Shown here: positions 1,274-15,990 of the stretch, in pieces
Layout: each line of letters opens with the position of its first letter
Position numbering within the stretch: position 1 is the first letter of the stretch
IMG/VR virus record: IMGVR_UViG_3300030061_000634
Location: 1 to 22,537 of that record
Source of the DNA: a virus
Reading direction: 5' to 3' (one strand)
Length of the DNA stretch: 22,537 bases
Program-made: the position numbers and the translations under genes
Notes under the pieces: model-generated
Told to the model about the DNA's origin: nothing
Database searches by the model: none
What the model saw: the letters and a program-made list of their open reading frames with translations, nothing else

Positions 1274-2175
1274 TATTTTCCTCCACCAAAAATACTACCT
1301 AAACCATAAGCACTTAATCCAGCAGATAAAGCTTGAGATAAAGGACCGACTCCGCCACCAGCTCCACCCATGGATTGGTTAGTTGTTGTTATTGGTGATC
1401 CGCTAGCTTGTGATGCAATACCTGATCCAAAAGCCTGTATTCTACTTAATGGTTCATTGTAAGCTAACTGAGCTTGTTGTTGTGCTGCATCTAACTGAGC
1501 TTGTTGGAAAGCTAAGTTCCCTGTACCAGCTGCACCTAATTGTTGTACACCTGACGCTGCTAATGATGGTTGTAATGATGCTAAGTTTTTTTGTTGTTCA
1601 AATGCATTTTGTGCAAATTGATTTGCTTGAGTAAATCCTTGACCTAATAATTGAGCTTGTAATGCTGCTCTGTTTCTTGCAGCTGTATTAGCATATTCTG
1701 CTTGAGCTATACCTTCTCTAGCACCACCAAAAGCTCCAGCTTGAATAGCTGTAGCTGCTAATTGTGGAACACCTTTTGCGGTTTGTACATCAAATTCTTG
1801 TAACGTCGTATCAATTACTTGTTGCTGATAAGGCGACATGAAAGATTGAAAAGCTTGTGGACCTGAATATGCAGCTGCTTGATCTAAGAAAGGTTGATAC
1901 CCTGCAACACCCGTTCCTGCTCCTGCACCTGTCACAGCTCCTGTTGCATCAAATTGTAATTGACCAAGACCTGCTTGAGTTGCTGCTTGTTGTTGAGCTG
2001 CTTGAGTTAAAACGTTTTGACCTGCAACTTGTGGTCCAAGTTCCGATAACGTTGGTACACCTAACGAGCCAGGAGGCCTACCAACTTGTTGTGTTAATAA
2101 ATCTATATAGTTTTCCTGAGCTGCTTCTATTGCAGGGGATCGTCTTACTGTTTGTGTATAATCTGTTACTGCCAT
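1273..2175 (-). CDS. Ala/Gln-rich internal virion (ejection-type) protein
   Basis: 300 residues, strongly enriched in Ala, Gln and Gly. The central segment has MSPY (113-116), then IDTTLQEFD (121-129), then AGAFGGAREG (146-155). I recognise this arrangement from a protein family widespread in marine podovirus-like phages, usually placed next to the tail genes and annotated as internal or tail-associated. Long Gln/Ala runs (57-70, 186-240) suggest extended helices; the C-terminus ends in a Gly/Ser-rich tail with FGGGK. It starts at the TAATG overlap with the gene upstream and ends in a TAATG overlap with the next, so the three genes are translationally coupled. By position and composition it could be an ejection protein like those of P22 or T7, but I see no enzymatic domain, and the role is inferred. 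Confidence 0.65.
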   Translation of the reverse strand: MAVTDYTQTVRRSPAIEAAQENYIDLLTQQVGRPPGSLGVPTLSELGPQVAGQNVLTQAAQQQAATQAGLGQLQFDATGAVTGAGAGTGVAGYQPFLDQAAAYSGPQAFQSFMSPYQQQVIDTTLQEFDVQTAKGVPQLAATAIQAGAFGGAREGIAQAEYANTAARNRAALQAQLLGQGFTQANQFAQNAFEQQKNLASLQPSLAASGVQQLGAAGTGNLAFQQAQLDAAQQQAQLAYNEPLSRIQAFGSGIASQASGSPITTTNQSMGGAGGGVGPLSQALSAGLSAYGLGSIFGGGK

Positions 2176-3818
2176 TATGCTTTACCTACTTGTTCTGCTT
2201 GTTTCATTGTTTTATATAATTTTTTAGAGCCTTCTTCAACGTCTCCTCCACCAATACCTCTAACAGCATCAGCAGTCATTACAAATTCGTTTTTAGATAA
2301 CATTGCTGGAACGTCATCTGCTTTTTCTTTTACACCAACTGGTACAAAACCACCTTCGTCTCTATAGTCTCTTTCAATTACACCTGCTTTATTTTGTGTT
2401 AATTTACCTGTTGGCACATCTCCTATACCACCCACTGATCTAAACGTTTTACCTGTTAATTGAAATAGTTCTGCTTCAATATCAGATACATCTGCGTTAG
2501 CATCTTTTGCTAATATACCATCTCTTAAAACTAATAATTCAGACACTCTGTTAGATCCACCTGCATACCCAATTCTACCGCCATCTGCTTTCATACCCAT
2601 AATAGCAATTTCTTTTAATATTGCTGCATCGTTAGGATAAGATCCAGGATTATTTAATATTTTATATAGATTAGGCATTGTGTAAGATCTACTTGCTCCA
2701 CCAGCACCTCCTAGTCTTCTAAATAAATATGATTTCTCTGCAGAGCTAAATGTAATACCTGCCATTAAATCGTCTTCTTTTTCTTCGTCGTCACCAGCTT
2801 CAACGTCAATAGTCATGATACCTATTTCTGCATCTTCTGGTTCTGAACCAAATTTAAATCCTATTCTTCCACCGTCTTTTTTACCAGCAAAGAAGTTAGT
2901 TAAGTAACCTGCGTACTCTTCTTGTTTATCTGCTTTTTTTAATTCATCATATTCTGCTTCAGTTAAATCTTCATCAACTCCTGTTTCAGCTGCTAGTGCT
3001 CTAGCTTCTGCGTATGATGCAGTGAAAGCTACTGCTCCCAATACTGCTGCTTTGTCAAGTGTAGTTCCACCTTTACCATCTGGTTTAGTAAACGCTGCTT
3101 TACCTGTTCTTTTTAAAAGATCTAACGCTGCATTTCCTCTGTCCCCCATAGTGCTATTAGGACTCACAATTTGTTTTATTGATTCTGTAATTGACATTTG
3201 ATTTGGTGAAGCTGTAAGAGTTTCTTGTGTTACTTTTTCAGCTATGTTTTGTGGGGTTAAAGATACTTCACTCATTTGTTCTGCTAAAATATTTGGCGAA
3301 GCACTTGTGCCTCCTGCAGACTCAGCCATAGTTATATTTCCACCTACATCAGATCCTGTTAATCCGTCTCCTACACTTGAAACAGGATCAGTTCCTCGGT
3401 TCGAGAAGAACTTACCAAGACCCGTGTCTGTACCTATAGGGGAACTAAATCCTGATGTAAAACCACTAGGTGTAAAAGCACCACCTGATGCAAAAGGATT
3501 ACCTTGGAATCCTGCACCACCAATGTATCTTGCAGCTTGTCCACCGCCATATGTTAATGCACCGCTTTTTAAAGAGTCACCAATACTACCAGTTTGATCA
3601 AAGCTACCAATACCGGCCATAGCACCTGCAAGAGCAGGGTTAAATGGAGCTACAAAAGGAGCAGCTTTAACTGCTATATCCGCTACTTCATTGGGTATAA
3701 TTTTTCTTACAAATTTTTTAAGTTTACTACCTAAGCCAAATTTTTCTCTAGGGGCAACTTGCATGATGCCTCCGTTTGCTTGTAATTGTCTGTTCATTAA
3801 AGATCTAGATATTGCCAT
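2175..3818 (-). CDS. Large low-complexity virion protein with DGGRIG motifs and conserved DDVPAMLSKNEFV tail
   Basis: 547 residues. The N-terminal 90 residues are basic then hydrophobic/Gly-Ala-rich (KKFVRKIIPNEVADIAV, then APFVAPFNPALAGAMAGIG), which could be an amphipathic or membrane-active segment. The middle (100-250) is Gly/Ser/Thr-rich and probably disordered. DGGRIG occurs at 315-320 and 412-417, with an acidic run between them (338-351). The C-terminus carries DDVPAMLSKNEFVMTADAV (501-519) followed by GGGDVEEGSKKLYKTMKQ, a tail I know from many marine phage internal or tail proteins; its function is unknown. The ATG at 3818 follows a 56-base gap and has no Shine-Dalgarno match, only AT-rich sequence. 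I infer an internal or ejection-type virion protein. Confidence 0.62.
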   Translation of the reverse strand: MAISRSLMNRQLQANGGIMQVAPREKFGLGSKLKKFVRKIIPNEVADIAVKAAPFVAPFNPALAGAMAGIGSFDQTGSIGDSLKSGALTYGGGQAARYIGGAGFQGNPFASGGAFTPSGFTSGFSSPIGTDTGLGKFFSNRGTDPVSSVGDGLTGSDVGGNITMAESAGGTSASPNILAEQMSEVSLTPQNIAEKVTQETLTASPNQMSITESIKQIVSPNSTMGDRGNAALDLLKRTGKAAFTKPDGKGGTTLDKAAVLGAVAFTASYAEARALAAETGVDEDLTEAEYDELKKADKQEEYAGYLTNFFAGKKDGGRIGFKFGSEPEDAEIGIMTIDVEAGDDEEKEDDLMAGITFSSAEKSYLFRRLGGAGGASRSYTMPNLYKILNNPGSYPNDAAILKEIAIMGMKADGGRIGYAGGSNRVSELLVLRDGILAKDANADVSDIEAELFQLTGKTFRSVGGIGDVPTGKLTQNKAGVIERDYRDEGGFVPVGVKEKADDVPAMLSKNEFVMTADAVRGIGGGDVEEGSKKLYKTMKQAEQVGKA

Positions 3819-3874: not shown

Positions 3875-4837
3875 TTATTTGATTTTTTTAGGCTCGTCAA
3901 TAGATTTGAGCGCTCTGCTTCCTTGCCAAAGATCATCTCTAAATCTACCGCAATAAGAATACTCACCAATGTGTGTTATATAATCGTTAATATAAGCATA
4001 TATCTTACCACCTAAATTTCGCCATCTTTGACAAAATCCAAAATCTTCTCCAAAATATCTTTTAGTTTTAGGGTCATGTAAAGTGTCAAATAAATTGTAC
4101 ATATTTGGTTGTTTAACTTCTTTACCATTTATAATGGTTGGTTGAAATATTTCGAGATCTGGGTTAGCTTCCATTAAATCAGTTAATACTTTTCTTTTAA
4201 TTAACATGCATCCCGTAGGAATATGAGTAAGTTCTACCACACCATCTTGTGCTTCAACATTATTAGGATTATCTGTCTTTACTGGATAAGTATATCCTGA
4301 ATGCATTAAATCATCAGGACCTTGAATAGCATCTTCTTTTTCATGCAGTCTTCTCCACATTTTATCCCAACTTAATGTTTTCATGGGATAAGGAACACCT
4401 ATAATATCTTTATCTTTTTCTAACATTTTAAAAATAGTTTTTGCTTCAAAATCAATATCTGAATCTATAAACAATAAATGAGTATAATTGTCTTCATGAT
4501 TTAACATACTCGCTACACATAAATTTCTACCTTGTGTAACTAAAGAAGATTTTAATAAAGTAAAACTTACTATCATGTTTTTTCTCATACACGCTTGTTG
4601 AAATTTTAAAACCGCTTGAGTGTAATGCATAGTAACTTCGCTATGACACGGGGTACATACCATAATCTTATAGGGCGAAACATTTCCTATATTTATTTCT
4701 GTAACCTCTGACTCTACTTTATTTGTTTTTATAGTTTGATAAGTATCTTCGTTATGAGTTATGGTTTTACTCGAAGATGTTTCATTAAACCAGATGGGTT
4801 CATTGTTTTTGCCCGAGGGCGTATTACTTTTTTGCAT
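3875..4837 (-). CDS. GT-A-type glycosyltransferase (family 2-like)
   Basis: 320 residues. After a polar N-terminal extension of about 55 residues the Rossmann-type core begins (KIMVCTPCHSEVT). The segment LLFIDSDIDF (121-130) supplies a DxD-type metal/nucleotide-sugar motif (D125-S-D127). PTGCMLIKR (207-215) and YFGEDFGFCQRWRNLGG (261-277), then DYITHIGEY, match the acceptor-side 'GED...F..RW...GG...HIG' pattern of phage-encoded GT-A glycosyltransferases. No signal peptide or membrane segment, so it should act in the host cytoplasm on a nucleotide-sugar donor. Its start overlaps the end of the GT-B glycosyltransferase by 14 bases, so the two are co-translated. Donor and acceptor are unknown; position among virion genes suggests a virion protein as target, although DNA or host polysaccharide remain possible. 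Confidence 0.82.
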   Translation of the reverse strand: MQKSNTPSGKNNEPIWFNETSSSKTITHNEDTYQTIKTNKVESEVTEINIGNVSPYKIMVCTPCHSEVTMHYTQAVLKFQQACMRKNMIVSFTLLKSSLVTQGRNLCVASMLNHEDNYTHLLFIDSDIDFEAKTIFKMLEKDKDIIGVPYPMKTLSWDKMWRRLHEKEDAIQGPDDLMHSGYTYPVKTDNPNNVEAQDGVVELTHIPTGCMLIKRKVLTDLMEANPDLEIFQPTIINGKEVKQPNMYNLFDTLHDPKTKRYFGEDFGFCQRWRNLGGKIYAYINDYITHIGEYSYCGRFRDDLWQGSRALKSIDEPKKIK

Positions 4838-5765
4838 TGATTGCTCCTTGTAAAAATCGGGCCCAAGACGTGCTTTGCTTACGCCAATTGTAATAGGTAT
4901 TTACATATTTAGATTGATCTTTTAAATGTTCTTGAATAGACGGTTCATGTAAAGTAGCTGCAGCTGCTTCAATACCATAAGCAAACTTTTCAGCTAAATT
5001 TCTATAATTAATATCATAAGGTATATACATTGGAAACTCTGCACCTGTTTCAAACAAAGCTCCATAATTAGTAGTAATACAATAAAGACCTGCAGCCATA
5101 GATTCTAATAAAGATATGCAAGATGTTTCTTCAAAAATACTTGGGTACACATACATATTATAATTGTGAATATTTTCTCTAATGTATTTATTTGGTTTGT
5201 AACCAATATAATTTACGTTAGGTAATTCTCTAGCTTGTTTATAAAGAGCTGTATAGTTATGATCATTCTGATCATAAAATTGTTTTCCATATATTTCTGT
5301 AGACGAATACACATCTAAACTAATTAAAGGATTTTTAATTAATTGCATTGCACCTAACAATACACTTAGTCCTCGCCAGGGAGTATTTTGATGAATAATT
5401 TTTATAGGTTTGTTTTGTTCATAAGGTTTAGCTTTTCCTATTTTTTCTATTCCATTTTTAATAACTAAACATTTATGACACGGTAAACCAAACATCATTC
5501 TAAATTTTTCATAATTCCAATGTGAATTAAATACATACCAATCGTACTTGTGATGATTAGCTTTATTCTTAAACCAAGGATGTAAATTAGGTTGATCGTA
5601 AGAATTTTTTTGCCAAAGTATATTTACTTTATTTGGATCAATAGGAATTTTACCAGGAACACTAGTACATATTTGTACTTGATCTAACAATTCTTTTTTT
5701 ACGTACTTAGTTAAAAATTCTAATTGTAACTCAGTGCCGCCTTTAGGGTTTTGGTTTGTTATCAT
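4824..5765 (-). CDS. GT-B glycosyltransferase (group 1 / GT4-like)
   Basis: 313 residues. Recognisable GT4-type landmarks: NPKGGTELQ near the N-terminus (6-14), VIKNGIE (101-107), the RGL loop (131-133), and YPSIFEETSCISLLESMAAG (207-226), which contains the E-x7-E motif (E213, E221) expected to contact the nucleotide-sugar. No membrane segment. It is shorter than a typical two-domain GT4 enzyme because the N-terminal domain is compact, but both domains seem present. The ATG at 5765 lies 23 bases inside the preceding small gene and fits the family N-terminus well. It directly precedes and overlaps a GT-A glycosyltransferase, so two sugars, or two acceptors, may be handled by one co-expressed pair. 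Substrate unknown. Confidence 0.83.
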   Translation of the reverse strand: MITNQNPKGGTELQLEFLTKYVKKELLDQVQICTSVPGKIPIDPNKVNILWQKNSYDQPNLHPWFKNKANHHKYDWYVFNSHWNYEKFRMMFGLPCHKCLVIKNGIEKIGKAKPYEQNKPIKIIHQNTPWRGLSVLLGAMQLIKNPLISLDVYSSTEIYGKQFYDQNDHNYTALYKQARELPNVNYIGYKPNKYIRENIHNYNMYVYPSIFEETSCISLLESMAAGLYCITTNYGALFETGAEFPMYIPYDINYRNLAEKFAYGIEAAAATLHEPSIQEHLKDQSKYVNTYYNWRKQSTSWARFLQGAINAKK

Positions 5766-6432: not shown

Positions 6433-6614
6433 TATGCTCTATTTATTTTTCTTAATGTTTTAGCAAAACGAGCTCTTTGTCCTAATTTGCCTTTTGCTTT
6501 AGCTGCTTTATTTAATTTAGCTAAAGGTATCTTTTCACCTTTTTTAATATTTAAAGCTTTTCTTAAAGAACCTGGTTTCTTAATTGCTTTTTTAATGTTT
6601 AGTCTTTTCGTCAT
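6432..6614 (-). CDS. Small Lys/Arg-rich phage protein, 60 aa
   Basis: 60 residues, strongly basic. The segment IKKPGSLRKAL (11-21), followed by IPLAKLNKAAKAKGKLGQRA and ARFAKTLRKI, matches a small family often seen in tailed phages ('aIKkPGaLr...L...Ak..g....rra.lA.TLkk'). Its role is not established; the charge would allow binding to DNA or to acidic virion proteins. ATG at 6614 overlaps the stop of the nozzle-like gene as TAATG, and its own stop overlaps the next ATG the same way. Identity as a member of that family is fairly secure; function is unknown. Confidence 0.7.
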   Translation of the reverse strand: MTKRLNIKKAIKKPGSLRKALNIKKGEKIPLAKLNKAAKAKGKLGQRARFAKTLRKINRA

Positions 6615-8524
6615 TATCTTCTCCCGTCTGGTTGAGCATCCATTCTAAAACTACCATAACGCCATGTTTGTCCTGCAGCATCGTTTTCTACTTTTAATGA
6701 TAATAATCTTCCTCGTGCTCTAGTATCTACTTTTTCTGTAGTGCTGGTTATTGTAAAAGGTCCGAGTGGTGACCCTGTTTGAATATCAGAAGGAAAGTCA
6801 GAAATAAACAAAGTTACTTTTGAATCACCTACTAAAAATTTATAGTCAGGCATAAATCTTTTCATTGACATAAATAATTCTCCGTCGTCAATATCAAAAT
6901 CTCCTGATCTAATAAATGCTGCAATTGCTGTAGTTCCCGAACTGTTAACTTGGTCAGTTCCTATTTCATGAGCATAATATATTGATGCTCCATATTTATT
7001 TGTAATGCCTGATATTTCAGAAAAAGCTGGAGTGCTTGTTGCTTCATAGTCTGTTGCATAAGGTAAATTAAATACACCTTGATCTTGATAAGTAGTTCTG
7101 TCTAAAGAACTGGTAGTCCAACAGTTTTCTTGATAATTATAAGTTACACATCGATCTATTTGTAAAGACTCCGATTTAGGATAAAACCAATTTACTTCTG
7201 TATATAAAGTATTAGGTGCTGAATAAACTGTAGAAGACGCATCATAGTTAATTCCTAAATCTCCATTACGTGTAGTAAATACAAAATCTTCTACAAGACA
7301 TGGCAGAGCTTTAACAGTACCGTCGTACATAAAAAATCCACCTTCACCCGACATCCAATATACAGCACCATTAACGTAACTTGCTGCATGTTGAGCGATA
7401 CATCCACAGTTTGTACCAACTTGTCTAACACTAAATGTAAATGGTGGACCTACAAATTGAATAACATAAGCAGCTAAATCAGTTAATACAAATACATAAT
7501 CTTTACCTTGTAAAGCTGCAGTAATTTTATTTCCTGTATCTAATCTAAATGTTCCCGCAGTATTAGTAGCTTTAGGCAAATAAGTATTAAGGTCTTCTTG
7601 ATTAGAAAACCTTACAAACATGGGATCTTGAGTGTTAGGTGAAGCGATAGTAGTTTCGGTTCCAAAATGAAATAAGTGTCGATCTCTATCTGAAACTAAT
7701 GTAAATCTAGTTGCAGTTGGATTTGCAGATGTAGAAAAACCAGATGTTGATTGCGAAGCTCTTATTGTTCGTGGATTAGTTGCTCCCGCGTTCCACGTAA
7801 AAGTTTTGCCGTTGAATACTGTTGCAACCAATACTTCTCCAAAATTATCTAAAGACCAGTTACCTGGATCTAGAGTTACATCACTTGTTCCTCGTTCTGT
7901 TCCCCATGTAGAATCACCCCACAAGTACGTGCTCCATCCATAACCTTTAGTTTGAAAAGTAGGACCAACTTTAACGTATGGATTAATACTAGCGGATCCT
8001 GAAGCAGAGGCAGCGCCAGAGGCATTAACTCGCATTTGAATCGTAAAACTGTTTGCATTAGGAACAGTTAATATTTCAAAAGCTCCTTCAGTAAAATCAG
8101 TCGCTACGTATCCAGTAGGAGGAGTAACTGATGTAAACGTTACATATCTTCCAATCTCTAATCCATGACCTGTTTTGTTAACTGTTACATTATTTTGACT
8201 AGAGAAAGTATCAAATGTAGCTCCGGTAATAGCTGTGTCTAAAGGAGTAATATCGTAAAAAGCTTCTCCGTAATATAAAAATAAACCTTGAGACGTTCCA
8301 ATAGCAGTATATCGTTCACCTTTTAAACTAGTAAATGCTAATTGAGCTCTAGCTGCACCGGGTACAGTTTCATTAGCTTGTGTAAGTTGTGTCCAACCTC
8401 CTATTTTTTCTGGTGCTGTATATCTAAAGCGTACAAAGTCGCCATCTACCCATTGTCCTGGAAGAGCTGAAGGTACACTTTGTTTATTAAAACCTGCTGC
8501 AAATTTGACTTTTTTTAGTGCCAT
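6614..8524 (-). CDS. Tail nozzle-like protein (P22 gp10-like / stabilisation type)
   Basis: 636 residues. The N-terminus (MALKKVKFAAGFNKQSVP, then WVDGDFVRFRYTAPEKIGGW) resembles the start of phage nozzle or DNA-stabilisation proteins, in which a ring of beta-propeller-like domains closes the short tail. Residues about 110-180 look like an inserted beta domain (NKTGHGLEIGRYVTFTSV ... GAFEILTVPNANSF). A Trp-rich motif, W197-x4-W202-x4-W207, then leads into repeated beta strands through to the C-terminus (MDAQPDGRR). Length and position among adaptors, fibres and internal proteins fit a nozzle. It follows the oxygenase cassette after a 44-base gap containing TATAAT on the coding strand (8568-8563) but no convincing -35. 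Structural role is likely; equivalence to gp10 is inference. Confidence 0.6.
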   Translation of the reverse strand: MALKKVKFAAGFNKQSVPSALPGQWVDGDFVRFRYTAPEKIGGWTQLTQANETVPGAARAQLAFTSLKGERYTAIGTSQGLFLYYGEAFYDITPLDTAITGATFDTFSSQNNVTVNKTGHGLEIGRYVTFTSVTPPTGYVATDFTEGAFEILTVPNANSFTIQMRVNASGAASASGSASINPYVKVGPTFQTKGYGWSTYLWGDSTWGTERGTSDVTLDPGNWSLDNFGEVLVATVFNGKTFTWNAGATNPRTIRASQSTSGFSTSANPTATRFTLVSDRDRHLFHFGTETTIASPNTQDPMFVRFSNQEDLNTYLPKATNTAGTFRLDTGNKITAALQGKDYVFVLTDLAAYVIQFVGPPFTFSVRQVGTNCGCIAQHAASYVNGAVYWMSGEGGFFMYDGTVKALPCLVEDFVFTTRNGDLGINYDASSTVYSAPNTLYTEVNWFYPKSESLQIDRCVTYNYQENCWTTSSLDRTTYQDQGVFNLPYATDYEATSTPAFSEISGITNKYGASIYYAHEIGTDQVNSSGTTAIAAFIRSGDFDIDDGELFMSMKRFMPDYKFLVGDSKVTLFISDFPSDIQTGSPLGPFTITSTTEKVDTRARGRLLSLKVENDAAGQTWRYGSFRMDAQPDGRR

Positions 8525-8568: not shown

Positions 8569-9171
8569 TTACAATTTTAACTCACTTAAAGTATTATCTG
8601 AACCCAATATTCCTTTATAAAAAGTATTAAAAGCAAGACTTATTCTAGTATCATGATTTTTTTTGGTATCGACTCGATGAATTAATGATGATGGAAACAT
8701 TATTAATTGGCCTGTTTTTACAGGAAGCCACCACGTATCTGAATTCCACATATTATATTTTTCTATCTCGGGTTTAATCTGTTGATATTCTTTTGGATAA
8801 GAAAATTTAATGCTATCATCTGCATTTAAATAAAATACACCTGATATAATTGAATTAGGATGAGCATGAGGATGATGATGCTCACCTTGTTCCATATAAT
8901 TTATCCAAGATTGAGTTACGTATAATTCAACTTTATGTTTAGGTGATATAATTTTATCTAAATAGTTTTTACAGTTTTTATCTATAAAACTTTTTATACT
9001 TTTTAATTCTGGTTTATCTAAAATATAGGTATCTTTTGTAAAAGAGTTAAAGTTTTTATTTGTCTTGTTTTTTTGATTATCAACAAAACTTAATTCTTTT
9101 TTTGTAAATGGTCGATTTATTTCTGAAATATAAACAGGGGTTGGAAATAAGCTATGGGTATTATACTTCAT
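8569..9171 (-). CDS. 2OG-Fe(II) oxygenase-like protein (TIGR02466 / PF13759 type)
   Basis: 200 residues using ATG at 9171. I preferred this start because the family begins near LFPTPVY (8-14), and the longer form would overlap the previous gene by 59 rather than 11 bases. The metal motif region is EHHHPHAHPNSIISGVFYLN (97-116); H102-x-H104 is in the place where many 2OG enzymes have HxD. The second half has IMFPSSLIHRV with H165, then DTRISLAF with R176, the expected 2-oxoglutarate-binding arginine. Such enzymes couple 2-oxoglutarate decarboxylation to hydroxylation of a substrate, here unknown. Last gene of the oxygenase cassette, separated from its relatives by the MAHFA protein. Confidence 0.82.
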   Translation of the reverse strand: MKYNTHSLFPTPVYISEINRPFTKKELSFVDNQKNKTNKNFNSFTKDTYILDKPELKSIKSFIDKNCKNYLDKIISPKHKVELYVTQSWINYMEQGEHHHPHAHPNSIISGVFYLNADDSIKFSYPKEYQQIKPEIEKYNMWNSDTWWLPVKTGQLIMFPSSLIHRVDTKKNHDTRISLAFNTFYKGILGSDNTLSELKL

Positions 9172-9724
9172 CCCACAATGTTGTATCAACATTCCAAACG
9201 TGAGTATCTTCATTAACATTTAGATGAGAAGCATTTCCATACCATTTTTGTTGGTCTTCATTCCATTTAATGTAATAAGGAGCTTGGTCAGGTTGTGTAC
9301 CTATAACGTTTCCATCGTTATCTGTTATGTCTTGTCCTGCTAAAGGATTACTATATTCTGTAACTGTTGGATAATCTACTGGTGCTTTCCAACTAAAATC
9401 TTCATTACTTAAATGCCATGAAGCGTAAGGTTGTGGTTCTACAAATCTATCAGCAGTTTCTAAATAAACTCCTCCACGCCCTGTAGCTTGATTTCTAAAA
9501 TTGTGATTATATGAATATTGTTTCCATACATTTTGCTCTTCAGAATACATATGTTTGTATAGATTTTTTACATATGTTTCGCCATCTACATGCATATCGT
9601 TTTCTCCTAAAGGACCGTTTGAAGTTGGTATATCATTAGAAGCAACAATACACTCTTGTACTTGCCATTCTAACTCTCCAGTAAATGGATTTGGTTGTTT
9701 CTCTAATCTTGCAAAATGTGCCAT
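9161..9724 (-). CDS. MAHFA-type marine phage protein, function unknown
   Basis: 187 residues. MAHFARLE at the start, VWKQYSYNHNFRN (66-78) and PQPYASWHL (97-105) are hallmarks of a protein I recognise from T4-like cyanophages and other marine phages, commonly lying among tail or oxygenase genes; no biochemical role is known to me. It is Trp/Tyr/Asn-rich with an acidic C-terminal half, has no signal peptide or membrane segment, and ends in NVDTTLWDEV. AAGGAG at 9737-9732, seven bases from the ATG, is a better ribosome site than most oxygenase genes around it have, and a possible promoter lies in the 39-base gap. Sandwiched between oxygenase genes, it might be a substrate or partner, which is speculation. 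Confidence 0.72.
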   Translation of the reverse strand: MAHFARLEKQPNPFTGELEWQVQECIVASNDIPTSNGPLGENDMHVDGETYVKNLYKHMYSEEQNVWKQYSYNHNFRNQATGRGGVYLETADRFVEPQPYASWHLSNEDFSWKAPVDYPTVTEYSNPLAGQDITDNDGNVIGTQPDQAPYYIKWNEDQQKWYGNASHLNVNEDTHVWNVDTTLWDEV

Positions 9725-9734
9725 AATAATTCTC

Positions 9735-9763
9735 CTTATATAATATTTAAAAATGCGTGTAAA
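9735..9763 (-). promoter_or_regulatory. Possible promoter before the MAHFA-type gene
   Basis: TTTACA (9763-9758), a 17-base spacer and TATAAG (9740-9735), each one base from consensus, lie in the 39-base gap. The -10 overlaps the AAGGAG ribosome site, so a transcript from here would lack it, which argues against use. AT-rich background makes chance matches likely. Confidence 0.25.
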
Positions 9764-10378
9764 TCATTTTTTACCTTTAAAAAACGCCGGTAGACCAAGC
9801 ATGGGTCGGTCATCAAATATAACAGCATTCTTAGTTTTTTTGTTATAGTGTAAAAATACTTGTGCACAGTCGGCTCCCGTAAAAGGTTTTCTCCAGTGTT
9901 CTAAATCACATCCTTTGTATATCAACATATCTCCTGGATTCAAATCTATTTTAACTCCTTTTTTGCCTTCTTTTCCTGTAGGTTCTAAATAGATAGGCCA
10001 ATTTTGACCTCCTAAATTTAAAGTCGTAGATATATCACAGGCCATTCTATCTTTATGTCTTTTTAAAACATCACCTTTCTTATATATTCGTCCATAAGAA
10101 TAATTAGGATGCAGTTTTAAACCTGTTTCTTTTTCCATAATGGGCTTGATGTGCTGTAATAAAGTTTCAAATACAGTATCAGAATATATACAAAACGTTT
10201 TAGGGACTTGAGTATCACCAAAAGAACCAAATAATTTTTCTTCTGGATTAATGTATCTATGATGTATTAAAACATGAGTTAAATACCTTCTGTTTAAAAA
10301 ATAATTAAATAAAAAAGTACAAAAATTTTTATCTAAAACTTTCTTTAAAACTTTATATTTATTTTTTTTAAAACTCAT
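9764..10378 (-). CDS. 2OG-Fe(II) oxygenase, HxD type
   Basis: 204 residues. After a basic helical N-terminus the double-stranded beta-helix core includes NYSYGRIYKKGDVLKRHKDR (92-111) with H108-x-D110 as predicted iron ligands, followed by ISTTLNLGG. NPGDMLIYKGCDLEHWRKPF (147-166) gives the distal His161. The expected late arginine is not in its usual place: the last core strand reads CAQVFLHYN, with Gln173, so the 2-oxoglutarate carboxylate may be held differently, perhaps by Arg163. Phage proteins with this GD...HWR.PF...QVFLHY pattern are usually annotated as oxygenases. The ATG forms an ATGA overlap with the stop of the preceding oxygenase gene. Substrate unknown. Confidence 0.82.
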   Translation of the reverse strand: MSFKKNKYKVLKKVLDKNFCTFLFNYFLNRRYLTHVLIHHRYINPEEKLFGSFGDTQVPKTFCIYSDTVFETLLQHIKPIMEKETGLKLHPNYSYGRIYKKGDVLKRHKDRMACDISTTLNLGGQNWPIYLEPTGKEGKKGVKIDLNPGDMLIYKGCDLEHWRKPFTGADCAQVFLHYNKKTKNAVIFDDRPMLGLPAFFKGKK

Positions 10379-10878
10379 TTTATATCTTTATTGTAATAAT
10401 TTAAATTAATTACTAACCTATTTTTTTCATCCGTGCAAGTGGTTCCTGTATGTTCATAACGTCCGTCAAAAATAACTACTCTATTTTCTCGACTTAATAT
10501 TTCTCTACCATTTTTAAAAATAGTTTTACCATTATTGGTATTAACATAATAAATGGCTGTCCACCATTTATGGTTCCAATCAAAATCAGTATGGTGATCA
10601 AATTTTTTAATATTTTTAGTCCGCAATAAAAGATTAGCTTTTATTCTAGCTATTGCTGTAGCATTTAATTTTTTTATTAAAGGATCTAACATATTACAAA
10701 AATCAGAGTTTGTTCCTCCTGTTTGATAAAACAAATGTGAAAATTGAAATTCATCTTCTTTATTATTTCCAGTAACACAACTAAAGTACCAAGGAAAATA
10801 ACCGCTGTTCATAGTATCATTTATTTTATTAAAACTTTCCCAATCTAAAAAATGATCATATATAAAAATATCTTTCAT
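10375..10878 (-). CDS. Compact 2OG-Fe(II) oxygenase
   Basis: 167 residues, the smallest of the group. FDHHTDFDW (93-101) gives H96-x-D98; VVIFDGRYEHTG (134-145) gives His143; NRLVINLNYY (153-162) gives Arg154. Together these complete the HxD...H...R set for iron and 2-oxoglutarate binding. IYYVNTNNGKTIF (109-121) is the usual strand pair between them. The reaction is expected to be a hydroxylation. The ATG lies two bases after the stop of the upstream oxygenase and its own stop overlaps the next ATG (ATGA). It differs strongly in sequence from its neighbours, so the cassette does not look like a recent tandem duplication. Confidence 0.82.
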   Translation of the reverse strand: MKDIFIYDHFLDWESFNKINDTMNSGYFPWYFSCVTGNNKEDEFQFSHLFYQTGGTNSDFCNMLDPLIKKLNATAIARIKANLLLRTKNIKKFDHHTDFDWNHKWWTAIYYVNTNNGKTIFKNGREILSRENRVVIFDGRYEHTGTTCTDEKNRLVINLNYYNKDIK

Positions 10879-10880
10879 TT

Positions 10881-11489
10881 TTATTTAAAACTATATCCTA
10901 AATTCCACACGACTAAAGAATATCTAGTGCCTCGTGTAATGGGTGTAACTCTATGCCAAGTATCTGAAGGAAAAACTATTAAACTTCCTTTACCTCCTAT
11001 TTCTTTTACCCTATGGGGTTTACATTTTTTTACATCTTGATGATCTCTAAAATCAAATTCAAAATGTCCTCCTTTATAATCTTTAGGATCCGATAAATTT
11101 ATAGTCATAGATATTTTTCTAAGTTTATTATGTGTATTTAAATTATTAGGAGTGTCATACGGTAAACTAGTATCTATGTGCCAGTTATAAAATTGATTAG
11201 GTCCGTATATAGTAAATTGAGCAGGCTCTGTCCAATCCCATTGAAAATTCCACTCTGCTTCTTTATTTGCTTGATGCACAAAAGGTTGAAGTTCTCTGTA
11301 AAGCCATTCTTCATCTAAAAAAACTACATCAGAGTTTCTATATTTTTTTGTATTTATTTGTTTTTTGTTTGTTATTTTTCTTACAGTTGCTTTTTTAACT
11401 TTGTGTCTTAAACCATACTTAATAACATCATCACAAAATTTATCTGATACAGCTTTTTTAAAATAAAAATATTTATGTTTTAAAATCAT
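10881..11489 (-). CDS. 2OG-Fe(II) oxygenase, prolyl-4-hydroxylase-like
   Basis: 202 residues from ATG at 11489. A 20-residue longer frame exists, but the chosen ATG overlaps the upstream stop as ATGA, is preceded by GAGAGGA, and gives the typical family N-terminus (KHKYFYFKKAVSDKFCDDVI). The core contains FYNWHIDT with H104-x-D106, then KISMTINLSDPKDYKGGHFEF, then IVFPSDTWHRVTPITRGTRY with His179 and Arg189, all canonical. The 'L.d...Y.GG.f.f' and 'FPs...H.V.Pi..GtRys' pattern is that of P4H-like oxygenases common in T4-like and marine phages. Probably hydroxylates a protein side chain, though small-molecule substrates cannot be excluded. Confidence 0.87.
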   Translation of the reverse strand: MILKHKYFYFKKAVSDKFCDDVIKYGLRHKVKKATVRKITNKKQINTKKYRNSDVVFLDEEWLYRELQPFVHQANKEAEWNFQWDWTEPAQFTIYGPNQFYNWHIDTSLPYDTPNNLNTHNKLRKISMTINLSDPKDYKGGHFEFDFRDHQDVKKCKPHRVKEIGGKGSLIVFPSDTWHRVTPITRGTRYSLVVWNLGYSFK

Positions 11490-12109
11490 TGATGCATTTC
11501 CTCTCTCCAAGCTATTCCATTTTCTTGCCAATATACTGGCCACGTCCAACTTGTCATAGAATATTTAACTCCTGATGTAATAGGAGATACAGTGTGGGGA
11601 TGCGTCACTTGACTAGGCCATATTAAAGCATGTCCTACTGGTATTTTTTTATTATCGAATTTTTGTCTTGGAAGTTTAAGTACACCACCTTTAAAATTAT
11701 CATTTAATTTAACTACCATTGTTATGTGACTTACATCATTATGCAAATGTAATTCGTCTTTTTTACTACCATCATACCTAACAATAAATGGGTCAAACCA
11801 ACCTATAACTTTCGTAGAGGGCCATTCTTTTTTTATCATTTTAGAAATAGTTTGAGAATAATGTATAGTAAAATCTTCAAAAAATTTTTCTCCCGCAAAA
11901 TATCTAGATCGCATAATATTAAAGTACAACGTTGAATCTTTAGCAACTTTAGATTGATGCCAATAATTAAATTTATTTTTTAATTCATCTCCTATGTTAC
12001 AAAGTTCTTTACAAAAAGATTCAGTAAATAAAGGTGTAATTAAAATATCTTTATGGTTTTTATATTTAATTCCTGCATCTTTGTGCACACCTTTTAAATA
12101 ATCAATCAT
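11486..12109 (-). CDS. 2OG-Fe(II) oxygenase, divergent active site
   Basis: 207 residues. HLHNDVSHITMVVKLND (121-137) contains H123-x-D125; FKGGVLKLPR follows, then ALIWPSQVTHPHTVSPITSG (161-180) with distal His172. The position of the 2-oxoglutarate-binding arginine reads GVKYSMTSW, so Lys182 replaces it; in other members of this cassette the same place reads GTRYS. Lys substitution can be functional in some 2OG enzymes, but this could also mark altered co-substrate use. The C-terminus is extended by a Trp-rich tail (WTWPVYWQENGIAW). ATG immediately follows the upstream stop (TAAATG) and the stop overlaps the next start. Confidence 0.82.
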   Translation of the reverse strand: MIDYLKGVHKDAGIKYKNHKDILITPLFTESFCKELCNIGDELKNKFNYWHQSKVAKDSTLYFNIMRSRYFAGEKFFEDFTIHYSQTISKMIKKEWPSTKVIGWFDPFIVRYDGSKKDELHLHNDVSHITMVVKLNDNFKGGVLKLPRQKFDNKKIPVGHALIWPSQVTHPHTVSPITSGVKYSMTSWTWPVYWQENGIAWREEMHQ

Positions 12110-12688
12110 TTAATAACACCAAGATACAAAAGAATATCTTGTTCCTTTCTTTATAGGCTTAACTAAATGTGGATATAAAAATATAGAAGGAAAAATAATT
12201 AAATCTCCAGCTTTAAATTTAATTTCATAATCATCAAACATTATAAATTCTCCACCTTTGTAGTCATCATTTAAGACCGCAACAATACTTAAAATTGGTA
12301 TTCCTTTCGTTTCTCCATTAAATAAATCATGAATATGATCTACATGTTTAGACATAATTTGATTTTTTTTATATCTGTTAAATCTAATTTTAGAAAATCC
12401 ATTCCAACTATTAATGGTGTCTCCACCAATTTTATCTGTAATAATATATTTTTCTATTGCTTTCCAGGTTAGTTTCATTAACTCTTCTAAATAAGTTAAT
12501 TTTTCTCCCCAACAAATATTAAGTTCTTTACTACCATTTTTAACATAAGTATCACTCGCATCTTGAAAGTTTTGATATTTGTGTTGTTCCCAAGTTTTAT
12601 CTTTTTTAAGTTCTTCTAAAGAAGTTTTTAAAATATTATGAGGAATCCAATTATCTAACTGAAGTATGTAGTCTTTTAAATTTTTCAT
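12110..12688 (-). CDS. 2OG-Fe(II) oxygenase, canonical P4H-like
   Basis: 192 residues. All key residues are present: SKHVDHIHDLF (113-123) with H115-x-D117; IVAVLNDDYKGGEFIMF (135-151) as the core strand pair; DLIIFPSIFLYPHLVKPI (162-179) with His174; and KGTRYSFVSW with Arg184. This is the layout of phage prolyl-4-hydroxylase-like oxygenases, requiring Fe(II), 2-oxoglutarate and O2. No signal peptide. The ATG overlaps the stop of the preceding gene as ATGA, which fixes the start. The protein is clearly related to the next two genes downstream through the YKGG and GtRYS segments, suggesting old paralogy within the cassette. Confidence 0.88.
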   Translation of the reverse strand: MKNLKDYILQLDNWIPHNILKTSLEELKKDKTWEQHKYQNFQDASDTYVKNGSKELNICWGEKLTYLEELMKLTWKAIEKYIITDKIGGDTINSWNGFSKIRFNRYKKNQIMSKHVDHIHDLFNGETKGIPILSIVAVLNDDYKGGEFIMFDDYEIKFKAGDLIIFPSIFLYPHLVKPIKKGTRYSFVSWCY

Positions 12689-13380
12689 TTAATAAATTTT
12701 TTAGGTCTTAATTTATTACCTAGCTTCATTAATTTCCAAGCTACATTAACAAAATAATTTTGTGGTTGAGAAGTTGCATGTGCTTTAAACAACTCCTCTG
12801 TCCATTTTAATCTTTTTAAATTAAAATCATCATTAAGCTTTTTACTTACAAATCTGACATAATATAAAGGCTGGTTTTCTTTTATTTTAATTGGTTTTTT
12901 ATCGTTTAATATTTCAAAGGTAAAATCTACAGGTCTTTGCCAACTGTGAATATCAAAGGTTCCACTAATAAATCTTGTGTTACTTACTTCACCATGTAAG
13001 AAAGGAGGATAAACTTCTAGCCACACAGGTTCGTCTGCAACAAACATATACGAAACTAAAACAGAACATAAAGCTTTATCTGTATCTGTATATTGTCCAA
13101 ATCTAGGGTCAACCATATGGTCTACAAAACCTTGTTTTTGACTTACCCAAATTCTTTTTTCTTCTCTAAAATATTTAATTTCAACGTCAAATGGAGATTT
13201 AATAACATAAAAATTTTTTAAAAAATTAAAGTTAGAGGGACATTGTTTAAATAAACTATTTGTTTTTTTGTAAAATCCTGAAATTTTTTCAGGAGTTTTT
13301 ATCATTCTTTCTAAAGATTCAATAAGATGATATTTATCAGAATAACTTTTTTTGAATGGTACCCAGCCTATTTTTGTCAT
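12685..13380 (-). CDS. Conserved marine phage protein of unknown function inside the oxygenase cassette
   Basis: 231 residues from ATG at 13380, which overlaps the upstream stop as ATGA; a slightly longer frame would need a TTG start, so ATG is preferred. Not an oxygenase: no HxD...H pattern is visible. Recognisable segments are FYVIKSPFDVEI (57-68), FDIHSWQRPVDFTFE (142-156) and QPLYYVRF (170-177). I recall proteins with these segments in other marine phages, typically near oxygenase genes, but know no function. The fold appears mixed alpha/beta with a short helical C-terminus (AWKLMKLGNKLRPKKF). Its fixed place between two oxygenase genes hints at a partner, substrate carrier or target-recognition role. 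Confidence 0.7.
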   Translation of the reverse strand: MTKIGWVPFKKSYSDKYHLIESLERMIKTPEKISGFYKKTNSLFKQCPSNFNFLKNFYVIKSPFDVEIKYFREEKRIWVSQKQGFVDHMVDPRFGQYTDTDKALCSVLVSYMFVADEPVWLEVYPPFLHGEVSNTRFISGTFDIHSWQRPVDFTFEILNDKKPIKIKENQPLYYVRFVSKKLNDDFNLKRLKWTEELFKAHATSQPQNYFVNVAWKLMKLGNKLRPKKFIK

Positions 13381-13925
13381 TCCCAATTTTCCCTGTTTCT
13401 AAAATTAAAAGCTATGGCATATTTAACAGTATCATCTATTATTCTTTTTGTTTTATGTCTAAGATGTGCTCTAAATAAAACAATTTTATTTTTTATAATT
13501 TCTGTTTTTAAATTTAATTCAGGAAATTCTAAGTAGTGTCCTTTACAAGTATTTAAAAATAATACGCCTGATATACTGTTGCCAGAATGATCATGCAGGG
13601 CAGTAAAACAATTTCTTGTCATTTTATTTCCCCAAGCATCTTTTAAATATGAATTACCCATTTTTGTATCTAAATTAAAATGATCTATGCAAAAAGAAAG
13701 TGCAGCATTTAGATCTAAATCGTAAATAAAATACGTCCAATCCGTCATTTCTCCACGAACATTAGTTCTATGGTTCATATTATTTGGAAGAGTAATACCG
13801 TGTTCTATTTCTCTAATTAATTTTTTTGTATTTATATTTTCTAAAATACATTCATAAAAAAAAGTTGGTTTTTCTATATTTCTCTCTAAAATTAAATTAG
13901 TCTGTTTTACTCTAATAGCTTTCAT
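13377..13925 (-). CDS. Divergent 2OG-Fe(II) oxygenase-like protein, first gene of cassette
   Basis: 182 residues. ALHDHSGNSISGVLFLN (109-125) aligns, without gaps, with AHPNSIISGVFYLN of the cassette's last gene, placing H111-x-H113 over its HxH. IVLFRAHLRHKTKRI (148-162) matches its IMFPSSLIHRV, so His157 is the distal ligand. The final core strand reads TVKYAIAFNF, where Lys168 stands in for the usual arginine. The metal site is therefore three histidines plus a lysine, an unusual set, and activity is uncertain. ATG at 13925 has no Shine-Dalgarno sequence and follows a near-consensus promoter by only 13 bases. The stop overlaps the next ATG. Confidence 0.72.
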   Translation of the reverse strand: MKAIRVKQTNLILERNIEKPTFFYECILENINTKKLIREIEHGITLPNNMNHRTNVRGEMTDWTYFIYDLDLNAALSFCIDHFNLDTKMGNSYLKDAWGNKMTRNCFTALHDHSGNSISGVLFLNTCKGHYLEFPELNLKTEIIKNKIVLFRAHLRHKTKRIIDDTVKYAIAFNFRNRENWE

Positions 13926-13938
13926 AATGTATTGCTAC

Positions 13939-13967
13939 ATTATATAGATAAATAAAATCTTATTCAA
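13939..13967 (-). promoter_or_regulatory. Promoter of the oxygenase cassette, near-leaderless
   Basis: On the minus strand TTGAAT (13967-13962), a 17-base spacer and a perfect TATAAT (13944-13939). The -35 box overlaps the stop codon of the glycine-rich gene. Transcription would start about seven bases before the ATG at 13925, leaving no room for a Shine-Dalgarno site, and none is seen. Confidence 0.55.
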
Positions 13968-14898
13968 TAGTTAAAGTACCAGTAGATAAAAAGGTAATTA
14001 TTGCACTTCCATCTTGAGAAGCAGTTATTGAACCTTCTGGACTGACTGTAACAAGGGGCACTAAAGCAGTAGGGCATCTTAAATGAACTCTACCAGATCC
14101 TCCCGTTCCGTTTCCTCCGCCTTGAACTGGGCCGCCGCCTCCGCCGCCGCCTCCAGTATTTGCTGCAGCGTTTCCTCTTCCACCGGCTCCTCCGCCAGAC
14201 CCTCCTGATCCGCCAGATCCGCTAGGTACGTTTCCAAATCCACCGCCACCTCCACCAGAGAATGTTTGTGAACTTGGTGAAATAAATGTAGTTGAACTTC
14301 CAGGTCCTCCTGGTCCTCCAGAGTTAGAATGTGATCCTGCTGATCCAGAAGCTCCTCCGCCTCCGCCACCAGCCGCTCCATAGGCCGGTCCATCTAATGA
14401 ACCTGGTGATTGACCACCTTGTGCGCCTTCAGGTGGAGAGTATCCACCAGCGTTTCCATTTCCTCTTGGATTAGAACCTACATATCCTCCCGGTCCAGAT
14501 CCACCGCCTGCACCTCCAGGCTGACCAGCAGCGTTTAAATCAGGAGATCCTTGATTACCTCCGCCACCGCCTCCGGTTGCTTCAACCGCAAATGAAGAAC
14601 CTGTAAATACTGAAGAATTACCACCAGATACACCTCTTCCAGATCCTTGTGCTGGTGGTACTGATCCAGATCCTCCAGCTCCAACTGTAATTGTGTATGT
14701 TCCTGTTTCGACTTCTTGTTGACCTTGGGGAATTGAAAATTCTCTCATTCCGCCGCCGCCTCCGCCGCCGCCGTAGTTAGAACCTCCAGCGCCTCCGCCA
14801 GCGACAAGTAAATAACCAAAAGGTATTTTATTTGATGATCCAGCTTGAAGACCAAATGCTCTTGATGCTGATGCTCCAAAACTTCCTAGTAGTGGCAT
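13960..14898 (-). CDS. Glycine-rich tail adhesin-like protein
   Basis: 312 residues, with Gly runs of up to eight or more and many GPGG, PGGAGG and SGG segments between about 30 and 270. IPFGYLLVAGGGAGG (25-39) and GTYTITVGAGG (66-76) mark the beta-strand plus polyglycine pattern of glycine-rich phage fibre and adhesin domains, in which Gly-rich stretches may pack as polyglycine-II helices at the fibre tip. The last 45 residues return to ordinary beta sequence (VHLRCPTALVPLVTVSPEG). Follows the fibre-type gene after 21 bases with AGGAGG before the ATG. It is the last gene before the oxygenase cassette, whose -35 box overlaps this gene's stop. Receptor binding is inferred; proline/glycine content makes it a plausible hydroxylation target. 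Confidence 0.72.
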   Translation of the reverse strand: MPLLGSFGASASRAFGLQAGSSNKIPFGYLLVAGGGAGGSNYGGGGGGGGMREFSIPQGQQEVETGTYTITVGAGGSGSVPPAQGSGRGVSGGNSSVFTGSSFAVEATGGGGGGNQGSPDLNAAGQPGGAGGGSGPGGYVGSNPRGNGNAGGYSPPEGAQGGQSPGSLDGPAYGAAGGGGGGASGSAGSHSNSGGPGGPGSSTTFISPSSQTFSGGGGGGFGNVPSGSGGSGGSGGGAGGRGNAAANTGGGGGGGGPVQGGGNGTGGSGRVHLRCPTALVPLVTVSPEGSITASQDGSAIITFLSTGTLTIE

Positions 14899-14919: not shown

Positions 14920-15990
14920 TTACGCAAACTGTGTTTGAGACGCTAATACTGTAAATGTCGCCGAACCAGTTTTAATAACTGTATATGAATAAACATCTAA
15001 GGAACTTGCATTACCAGAAGTTGGCGCAGATCCGCCTTGATATTCTGGAGTAACACTTGATCCATCAATTTGAACTGCACTATTGTAATAAGGTGTACTA
15101 CCTTGTTTTACAATGTGTGCAATAGTTATTGATTCTCCTGTATCCATAATTGAATCTAAAGATGTAGAACCATCTCCTCTAATATTTAGAGTCCAGTTAG
15201 CTCCTGCATCTGAACTAAAGTTCCAAACTGCTTGTGTAAGAACATCGTAGTTAATTGTTCCTGTAGCGGCTGTTGCTTCAGTTGTAACTTTTTCTGCAAC
15301 ACTTTGAATTTTACCTTGGCCATTAAAAGTTGCTCTTCCATAACCTTTTGGTGTAATGTTTAAATCTATATTAGCATCTCCACCAGTTGCAGATAAATTT
15401 GGCGCATTACCTGTAGCTGCGTTAGCGACTGTAAATTCATTAACTGCAGAGCCAGTTGTTGAAAATTTAATTTGTTCGGCTGAATTTTCGTCTAAGATAG
15501 CTTTTGTGTTATCAATAATAATATTTTGTGCGTTAGTATCTAAGTCTGCTGAAAGTTGTGGGGAGAAGTCAGACGATAACTCTGTAAATGCTGTATCAAC
15601 AACATTTGTTCCATCCGAGTAAACCATTTTTGTGCCTTTGTCAGCTGCTGCCCAAGTTACTCCAGTTCCTGAAGCAGTTTTAAACGTCACTGTGTGAGAA
15701 CCAGTAGTTCCGTTATCGACTACAAAAGTTTTTTCAATTGAATCAGGGATAGTTACATTAACTGCTCCTCCGATTGTTCCTGTTAATTTTAATACTGCAT
15801 TTTTACCGTTTGATAAAGCGCCGTTTGAAAAAGTTAAAGTTGCACCTGATGTAATACCTACGGCATCATAACCACCAATTGCTTGTTCTAAAATTAATAA
15901 GTTTGTGTTTGTAATTTGTCCCCAAGTTCCTGAATTTTCTCCAGTAGCTTGAACTGTAAGTTTTAAACTTGCTGATGTCGAATTCGCCAT
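14920..15990 (-). CDS. Tail fibre-type virion protein
   Basis: 356 residues. The N-terminus (MANSTSASLKLTVQATGENS, then GTWGQITNTNLLILEQAIGG at 21-40) is a recognisable marine phage structural module, often at the start of fibre or spike proteins. The rest is Thr/Ser/Gly/Asn-rich beta repeats (AVNVTIPDSIEKTFVVDNG; HTVTFKTASGTGV; NIDLNITPKGYG) as in trimeric fibres. The C-terminus (YSYTVIKTGSATFTVLASQ) is again beta. No enzymatic motif such as a lyase or hydrolase is visible. It follows the cupredoxin-containing protein, with an AU-rich hairpin in the gap, and precedes the glycine-rich adhesin, so the three may build one fibre assembly; this is inferred from order. Confidence 0.7.
   Translation of the reverse strand: MANSTSASLKLTVQATGENSGTWGQITNTNLLILEQAIGGYDAVGITSGATLTFSNGALSNGKNAVLKLTGTIGGAVNVTIPDSIEKTFVVDNGTTGSHTVTFKTASGTGVTWAAADKGTKMVYSDGTNVVDTAFTELSSDFSPQLSADLDTNAQNIIIDNTKAILDENSAEQIKFSTTGSAVNEFTVANAATGNAPNLSATGGDANIDLNITPKGYGRATFNGQGKIQSVAEKVTTEATAATGTINYDVLTQAVWNFSSDAGANWTLNIRGDGSTSLDSIMDTGESITIAHIVKQGSTPYYNSAVQIDGSSVTPEYQGGSAPTSGNASSLDVYSYTVIKTGSATFTVLASQTQFA

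Follow-up and report, generated by a model that had tools for sequence, protein, structure and literature searches.

Clusters of genes for 2-oxoglutarate (2OG)-Fe(II) oxygenases are already known from HTVC023P-type phages, whose members HTVC027P and HTVC023P were both cultivated on Pelagibacter HTCC1062; PMC9599517 describes the clustered genes as "not adjacent" and as having "ferrochelatase" partners. Fe(II)-dependent oxygenases are also listed among the host-recognition genes in the variable metaviromic islands of marine phages (PMC3909814). Here, we describe a nine-gene cassette (G1–G9, positions 8569–13925) in the virus record IMGVR_UViG_3300030061_000634, of which a stretch of 22,537 nucleotides, hereafter the window, was analysed. 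Seven of the nine genes encode 2OG-Fe(II)-oxygenase-type proteins, and the cassette appears to be exchanged between phages together with the glycine-rich tip of the neighbouring fibre protein, GlyR.

By its structural gene order and its similarity to the cultured members, the window is assigned to an HTVC023P-type pelagiphage. Its capsid protein is 84% identical to that of HTVC027P, and its stabilisation protein is 69% identical to that of HTVC027P and 56% to that of HTVC023P. All identified genes of the 22.5-kb fragment lie on the minus strand, and no polA was found among them. The clusters that PMC9599517 reports for HTVC023P, HTVC027P, and 023Pt_psg01 share with the cassette the phage group, the place beside the stabilisation gene, the oxygenase families, and the "ferrochelatase" neighbour. 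In contrast to those clusters, the window possesses seven oxygenase genes that are consecutive but for two others. The clustering of oxygenases is therefore known in kind, and the cassette is a compact and large example of it. New are the exchange unit of tip and cassette and the correction of two gene labels, "ferrochelatase" and "denV"; neither a block travelling with the tip nor the "ferrochelatase" as an oxygenase fold appears in the accessible parts of PMC9599517. In the metaviromic islands, the oxygenases are variable as they are here, without a mechanism or a linkage of tip and cassette (PMC3909814).

The nine genes sit between the GlyR gene and the stabilisation gene (Table 1). Comparison with related contigs (given L numbers) indicates that the cassette is exchanged as a 6.3–6.4-kb block with the C-terminal glycine-rich tip of GlyR, whereas the N-terminal anchor of ∼22 residues and the backbone of the phage stay behind. 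The window matches L267 and L273 at 88–89% DNA identity only from position 14833, inside GlyR, to position 8392, inside the stabilisation gene; in the comparison with L267, the block ends within GlyR just past the anchor and ∼130 bp into the stabilisation gene. Outside the block, the fibre and stabilisation proteins are 30–46% identical with a synonymous divergence (dS) of 1.3–1.6, whereas inside the block dS is about 0.2–0.6 except for G7 (1.2). The glycine-rich protein of L267 and L273 carries a different N-terminal anchor and the same tip as GlyR. L008 is the mirror case, with 88% identity to the window outside the block and positions 14849–8573 replaced, so that the borders nearly coincide in two opposite comparisons. 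This joint movement with the fibre tip, the strongest clue to the role of the cassette, had not been named in the original prediction that singled out the seven genes.

Across 34 loci, the similarity of the oxygenase sets follows the similarity of the tips (partial rank correlation 0.41, permutation p 0.0005; 0.22 and p 0.01 without the window-type group) and not the backbone (−0.06), with p values that are indicative only, since related loci counted as independent and the sampling relied on similarity to window genes. When only 96 residues of the tip were searched against 2.9 million viral contigs, 18 contigs matched. All 18 carry a G1 orthologue next to the tip, and all that reach further carry more of the cassette. 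The same behaviour is seen for a second, unrelated tip, that of L013, which was found in three other contigs. L323, with a tip 84% identical to that of L013, keeps the ordered oxygenases at 72–85% identity as far as the contig reaches, and L324, with a tip at 52% and a stabilisation protein at 48%, keeps most of the order at 39–52%. The L013 oxygenase set is not kept in phages whose stabilisation proteins are 83–91% identical and whose tips are different.

These data are compatible with a model to which we assign an about even chance of being correct, namely that the cassette and the tip form an exchangeable host-recognition module in which the oxygenases hydroxylate the fibre tip. The cassette would be the enzyme half of such a module in the HTVC023P-type pelagiphage, and the C-terminal tip of GlyR, probably along with the small fibre-like protein G8, would form the other. 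Synthesised alongside the tail proteins, the oxygenases would hydroxylate side chains of the new tip (or of G8) before or during virion assembly, which might alter the folding of the tip or the SAR11 surface that it binds. Each tip would retain its own enzyme set, and tip and enzymes would be replaced and inherited together because they work together. That marine phages have exchangeable receptor-binding modules whose glycine-rich tips come with private sets of up to ∼nine hydroxylases that finish them is a more tentative proposal, which may well not hold.

The tip of GlyR contains 0 Lys, 20 Pro, and 12 Asn in 287 residues. The lack of lysine excludes lysine hydroxylation of the tip, and because the cassette also has prolyl-4-hydroxylase (P4H)-like members, proline and asparagine are the natural candidates and would be the likeliest targets of hydroxylation. 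A comparable exchangeable part is gp38 of phage S16, a glycine-rich tail-fibre tip that binds the receptor and is swapped between phages; the two tips are likened by description only. We know of no oxygenases that accompany phage S16 gp38.

Several observations weigh against a tip-modifying module. No substrate, activity, or virion modification has been shown here or in the papers found, and after ten tests there is no convincing correlation between the residue composition of the tips and the number of oxygenases. The 2OG-binding residue of G7 is not at the usual place. Phages with collar-type tips that are ∼70% identical have only one oxygenase in common and differ in the other members of their sets, so that the coupling of tip and cassette is not strict. 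Finally, tip and cassette are adjacent, and linkage by itself could produce such a block exchange. This linkage-only reading is the main rival explanation, although we consider it rather unlikely: a recombination hot spot between conserved flanks would move the interval, and the oxygenases would act on host surface sugars, lipids, or small molecules. The exchange borders indeed fall in conserved flanks, non-oxygenase genes also occupy the interval, and the collar-tip phages vary their oxygenases despite similar tips, but the upstream border separates the anchor from the tip within GlyR, each of two unrelated tips retains its own ordered set, and oxygenases adjoin G8-type proteins in unrelated phages too.

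The oxygenase identity of the seven proteins, proposed in the original prediction, was supported for five by Pfam cut-offs, for G6 through a homologue, and for G7 by its predicted fold. G1 (E 3.7e-6) and G9 (6e-21) match PF13759 above the cut-off, and G3 (1e-12), G4 (1e-9), and G5 (2e-16) match PF13640. G6 matches PF13640 at 2e-5, 1 bit under the cut-off, and a 41% identical cyanophage homologue lies above it. In PHROGs, G1 and G9 are assigned to phrog_81, G3–G5 to phrog_61, G6 to phrog_274 ("DNA endonuclease V"), and G7 to phrog_2954 ("ferrochelatase"). Among the orthologues (15–122 aligned sequences per gene), the metal-binding motif is invariant, as HxD...H in G3–G7 and as HxH...H in G1 and G9. 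A basic residue (Arg or Lys), expected to bind 2OG, follows the distal histidine in six of the seven proteins. The proposed HxD/HxH...H...R/K pattern is thus complete in these six, whereas G7 lacks the usual Arg/Lys ∼10 residues past the distal histidine.

It is highly improbable that the seven proteins are virion structural proteins or chaperones that kept the fold and lost catalysis. Cupin-like folds can be structural and the genes sit among structural genes, but the metal ligands are essentially invariant while the mean identity drops to 0.5–0.8. The oxygenases are probably catalytically active. In the PF13759-type members G1 and G9, the HxH is invariant where HxD is usual, which suggests three-histidine metal binding or another ligand arrangement; G9 is related to the solved structures 3bvc and 2rg4, PF13759 members that likewise have HxH.

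The paralogues are divergent, in agreement with the earlier view that they are not simple recent copies. The best identity within the cassette is 30–32% among G3, G4, and G5 and 23% for G1 and G9, and G6 and G7 show no significant similarity to other members. Recent tandem duplication was ruled out, as the paralogues are at most 32% identical and orthologues elsewhere 48–100%. Homologues of G5 at ∼47% identity are present in many other cassettes. The ratio of nonsynonymous to synonymous substitution rates (dN/dS) is 0.05–0.32 for the oxygenase genes and below 0.5 for every cassette gene, indicating purifying selection that would keep all of them functional. All nine open reading frames (ORFs) were verified at their predicted coordinates. 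From G1 to G7, neighbouring genes overlap or are no more than 2 bases apart: G1 and G2 overlap (by ATGA if G2 begins at its likely ATG), followed by spacings of −4 (G2/G3), 0 (G3/G4), −4 (G4/G5), +2 (G5/G6), and −4 bases (G6/G7). A gap of 39 bases separates G7 and G8, and G8 and G9 overlap by 11 bases.

G7 has no Pfam match. Its AlphaFold model, built with 34 sequences (mean predicted local distance difference test (pLDDT) 91), predicts the 2OG-oxygenase β-helix, which bears out the structure-prediction check suggested for this gene. In a Foldseek search of the PDB, the model matches bacterial P4H, SnoN, HygX, the PBCV-1 viral prolyl hydroxylase, and PHD2 (best E 1.9e-8; 600 matches at E ≤ 0.001). 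Bacterial P4H (4j25; 4iw3 with EF-Tu) and the PBCV-1 viral collagen prolyl hydroxylase vCPH (5c5t), both protein-modifying 2OG oxygenases, are among its best structural matches (E 1.9e-8 to 4.3e-7). G7 is only 10–14% identical to them, and the likeness is one of predicted fold, not of substrate. An arginine at +2 after the distal histidine is invariant, and the invariant R97, R111, and R163 are candidate 2OG-binding residues. A TET-like DNA oxygenase was considered for G7 and rejected; the match to Naegleria Tet is weak (E 0.015, single sequence), and a profile did no better (0.38). Against L267 and L273, G7 has a dS of 1.2 and most of its block neighbours 0.2–0.6, and G7 was therefore probably replaced separately within the exchanged block.

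No ferrochelatase domain was found in 34 relatives of G7 at E ≤ 1. Because of this and the predicted fold, the label "ferrochelatase" of G7 and phrog_2954 in pelagiphages and cyanophages is judged wrong, and the protein is predicted to have an oxygenase fold. The S-PM2 gene named ferrochelatase falls in the same family, phrog_2954. The "ferrochelatases" at window positions 9764–10378, at L303:2878–3486, and in phrog_2954 share the predicted 2OG-oxygenase fold and the invariant HxD...H. By name, position, and the annotation of HTVC023P, a G7-type protein is very probably the "ferrochelatase" partner described in PMC9599517. The rule given there that each ferrochelatase always has an adjoining oxygenase would thus reduce to an oxygenase beside an oxygenase. 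A second PHROG named ferrochelatase, phrog_3531 (362 positions), aligns with G7 at 72–168 and with G3 at 280–361, and seems to join a G7-like domain to a PF13640-like one, giving two oxygenases in one chain.

The label of G6 is in error as well. The "denV" of cyanophage S-SSM7 (T4-GC 100; L302:2989–3471), a G6 homologue, matches PF13640 above the cut-off and DUF6445 weakly. In Pfam, no endonuclease model matches G6 or the S-SSM7 protein, and T4 endonuclease V is absent from the PDB matches of G6. The phrog_274 label "DNA endonuclease V", or denV, is accordingly judged wrong for G6 and the S-SSM7 protein, both of which look like PF13640-type oxygenases.

The corrected "ferrochelatase" label bears on the view that the cassette genes are auxiliary metabolic genes altering the 2OG, iron, or haem metabolism of the host, with the "ferrochelatase" as partner. 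This is the published interpretation of PMC9599517 and PMC11561400, and for cyanophages of PMC3037559, and in the course of pelagiphage infection, iron uptake genes of the host are elevated at some time points (PMC12753301). We consider it improbable here, as the "ferrochelatase" is predicted to be an oxygenase-fold protein, the genes are part of the tail module and move along with the fibre tip, and many divergent paralogues per genome poorly fit the drawdown of one metabolite.

The block recurs in other contigs and samples, at 98–100% identity in L084 and ∼80–98% per gene in L171 and L177. The cassette is hence neither unique to this contig nor an assembly artefact, and the expected recurrence with tail genes was observed. 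Among 76 distinct related loci, a sample biased by being gathered through similarity to window genes, the same interval holds 1–10 oxygenase-like genes per locus (median 3), with at least seven in 11 loci. The count of ten in L041 falls to nine, as L041:7142–7627 is without the oxygenase motif and has a weak DUF1810 match (E 7e-4). In L013, 6 of 9 oxygenase genes pass Pfam, and three rest on profiles built here plus the motif. The cultured HTVC027P has three oxygenase genes, and HTVC023P at least four counting its "ferrochelatase". Seven in a row, put forward as distinctive, is thus real, compact, and large; the number is high yet not exceptional. In L068, L019, L049, and L164, some or all of the oxygenase genes run in the opposite orientation to the late genes.

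Even phages whose backbones are 90% identical differ in their sets, which range from 1 to about 9–10 genes as members are swapped. This accords better with separate modifiers, mixed and matched, than with the dedicated multi-step pathway that had been suggested. A true pathway might be completed by the two glycosyltransferases encoded 3 kb from the cassette in the same direction, which would decorate hydroxyls made by the oxygenases on tail proteins. We regard this as very unlikely: the glycosyltransferase genes co-occur with very different oxygenase sets, lie outside the exchange block, and vary with the backbone and not with the cassette. With or without them, the data do not support a multi-step pathway.

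None of the tests applied marks G2 or G8 as an oxygenase. The idea of G2 as a further oxygenase found no support; the window protein has no Pfam match at E ≤ 10, and its AlphaFold model reaches a pLDDT of only 38. Few genes of the block are under stronger constraint than G2 (dN/dS 0.04–0.11). Apart from remote homologues in cyanophages and roseophages, it occurs only in window-type cassettes, and it shows no fold that can be recognised. Homologues of G8 adjoin oxygenase genes in HTVC008M, S-MS29, and DSL-LC04, and G8 is a second candidate substrate of the oxygenases. The pelagimyophage HTVC008M and the cyanophage S-MS29 carry, next to a G8-like protein, runs of genes with the annotations 2OG oxygenase, phytanoyl-CoA dioxygenase, and "ferrochelatase"; the HTVC008M run lies directly behind a very long ORF. 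These phages differ from the window in being myoviruses with other gene sets, and no glycine-rich tip has been shown to adjoin their runs.

Table 1. Features of the window around the oxygenase cassette
Feature	Position	Strand	Description
G1	13377..13925	-	PF13759-type oxygenase; H111-D-H113 ... H157 ... K168
G2	12685..13380	-	phrog_17480; likely ATG at 13380
G3	12110..12688	-	PF13640 (P4H-like) oxygenase; H115-V-D117 ... H174 ... R184
G4	11486..12109	-	PF13640 oxygenase; H123-N-D125 ... H172 ... K182
G5	10881..11489	-	PF13640 oxygenase; H104-I-D106 ... H179 ... R189
G6	10375..10878	-	phrog_274-type oxygenase; H96-T-D98 ... H143 ... R154
G7	9764..10378	-	phrog_2954, predicted oxygenase fold; H108-K-D110 ... 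H161
G8	9161..9724	-	MAHFA-type protein, phrog_7759; probable fibre/virion component
G9	8569..9171	-	PF13759-type oxygenase; H102-A-H104 ... H165 ... R176
GlyR	13960..14898	-	Glycine-rich fibre-tip protein; PF21722 above cut-off
Stabilisation/virion structural protein	6614..8524	-	phrog_3287; downstream border of the block
Fib2	14920..15990	-	Backbone protein of the upstream fibre region; stays behind when the block moves
Exchange block common to window and L267	8392..14833	-	88.8% DNA identity; flanking genes ∼45% identical in protein
Two glycosyltransferase genes	3875-5765	-	3 kb from the cassette, same direction

Elsewhere in the window, the tail gene at 2175–3818 is 83% identical to that of L084, a contig otherwise 98–100% identical, which marks it as a place where the sequence changes quickly or is exchanged.

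Abundant ocean phages commonly carry oxygenase genes, which are usually classed as auxiliary metabolism. Arguments on iron and haem, as well as the seasonal enrichment reported in PMC11561400, which has a ferrochelatase category in its abstract and phrog2954 in its Fig. 3, rest on the "ferrochelatase" label corrected here; a "denV" annotation in cyanophages is corrected too, and both labels are widely used. That cassette and tip are exchanged jointly points towards host recognition and provides a specific, testable substrate. If the proposed module is real, post-translational modifications in combination, together with the sequence of the tip, would determine host range, and such modification would be part of host choice by the viruses of the most abundant marine bacteria.

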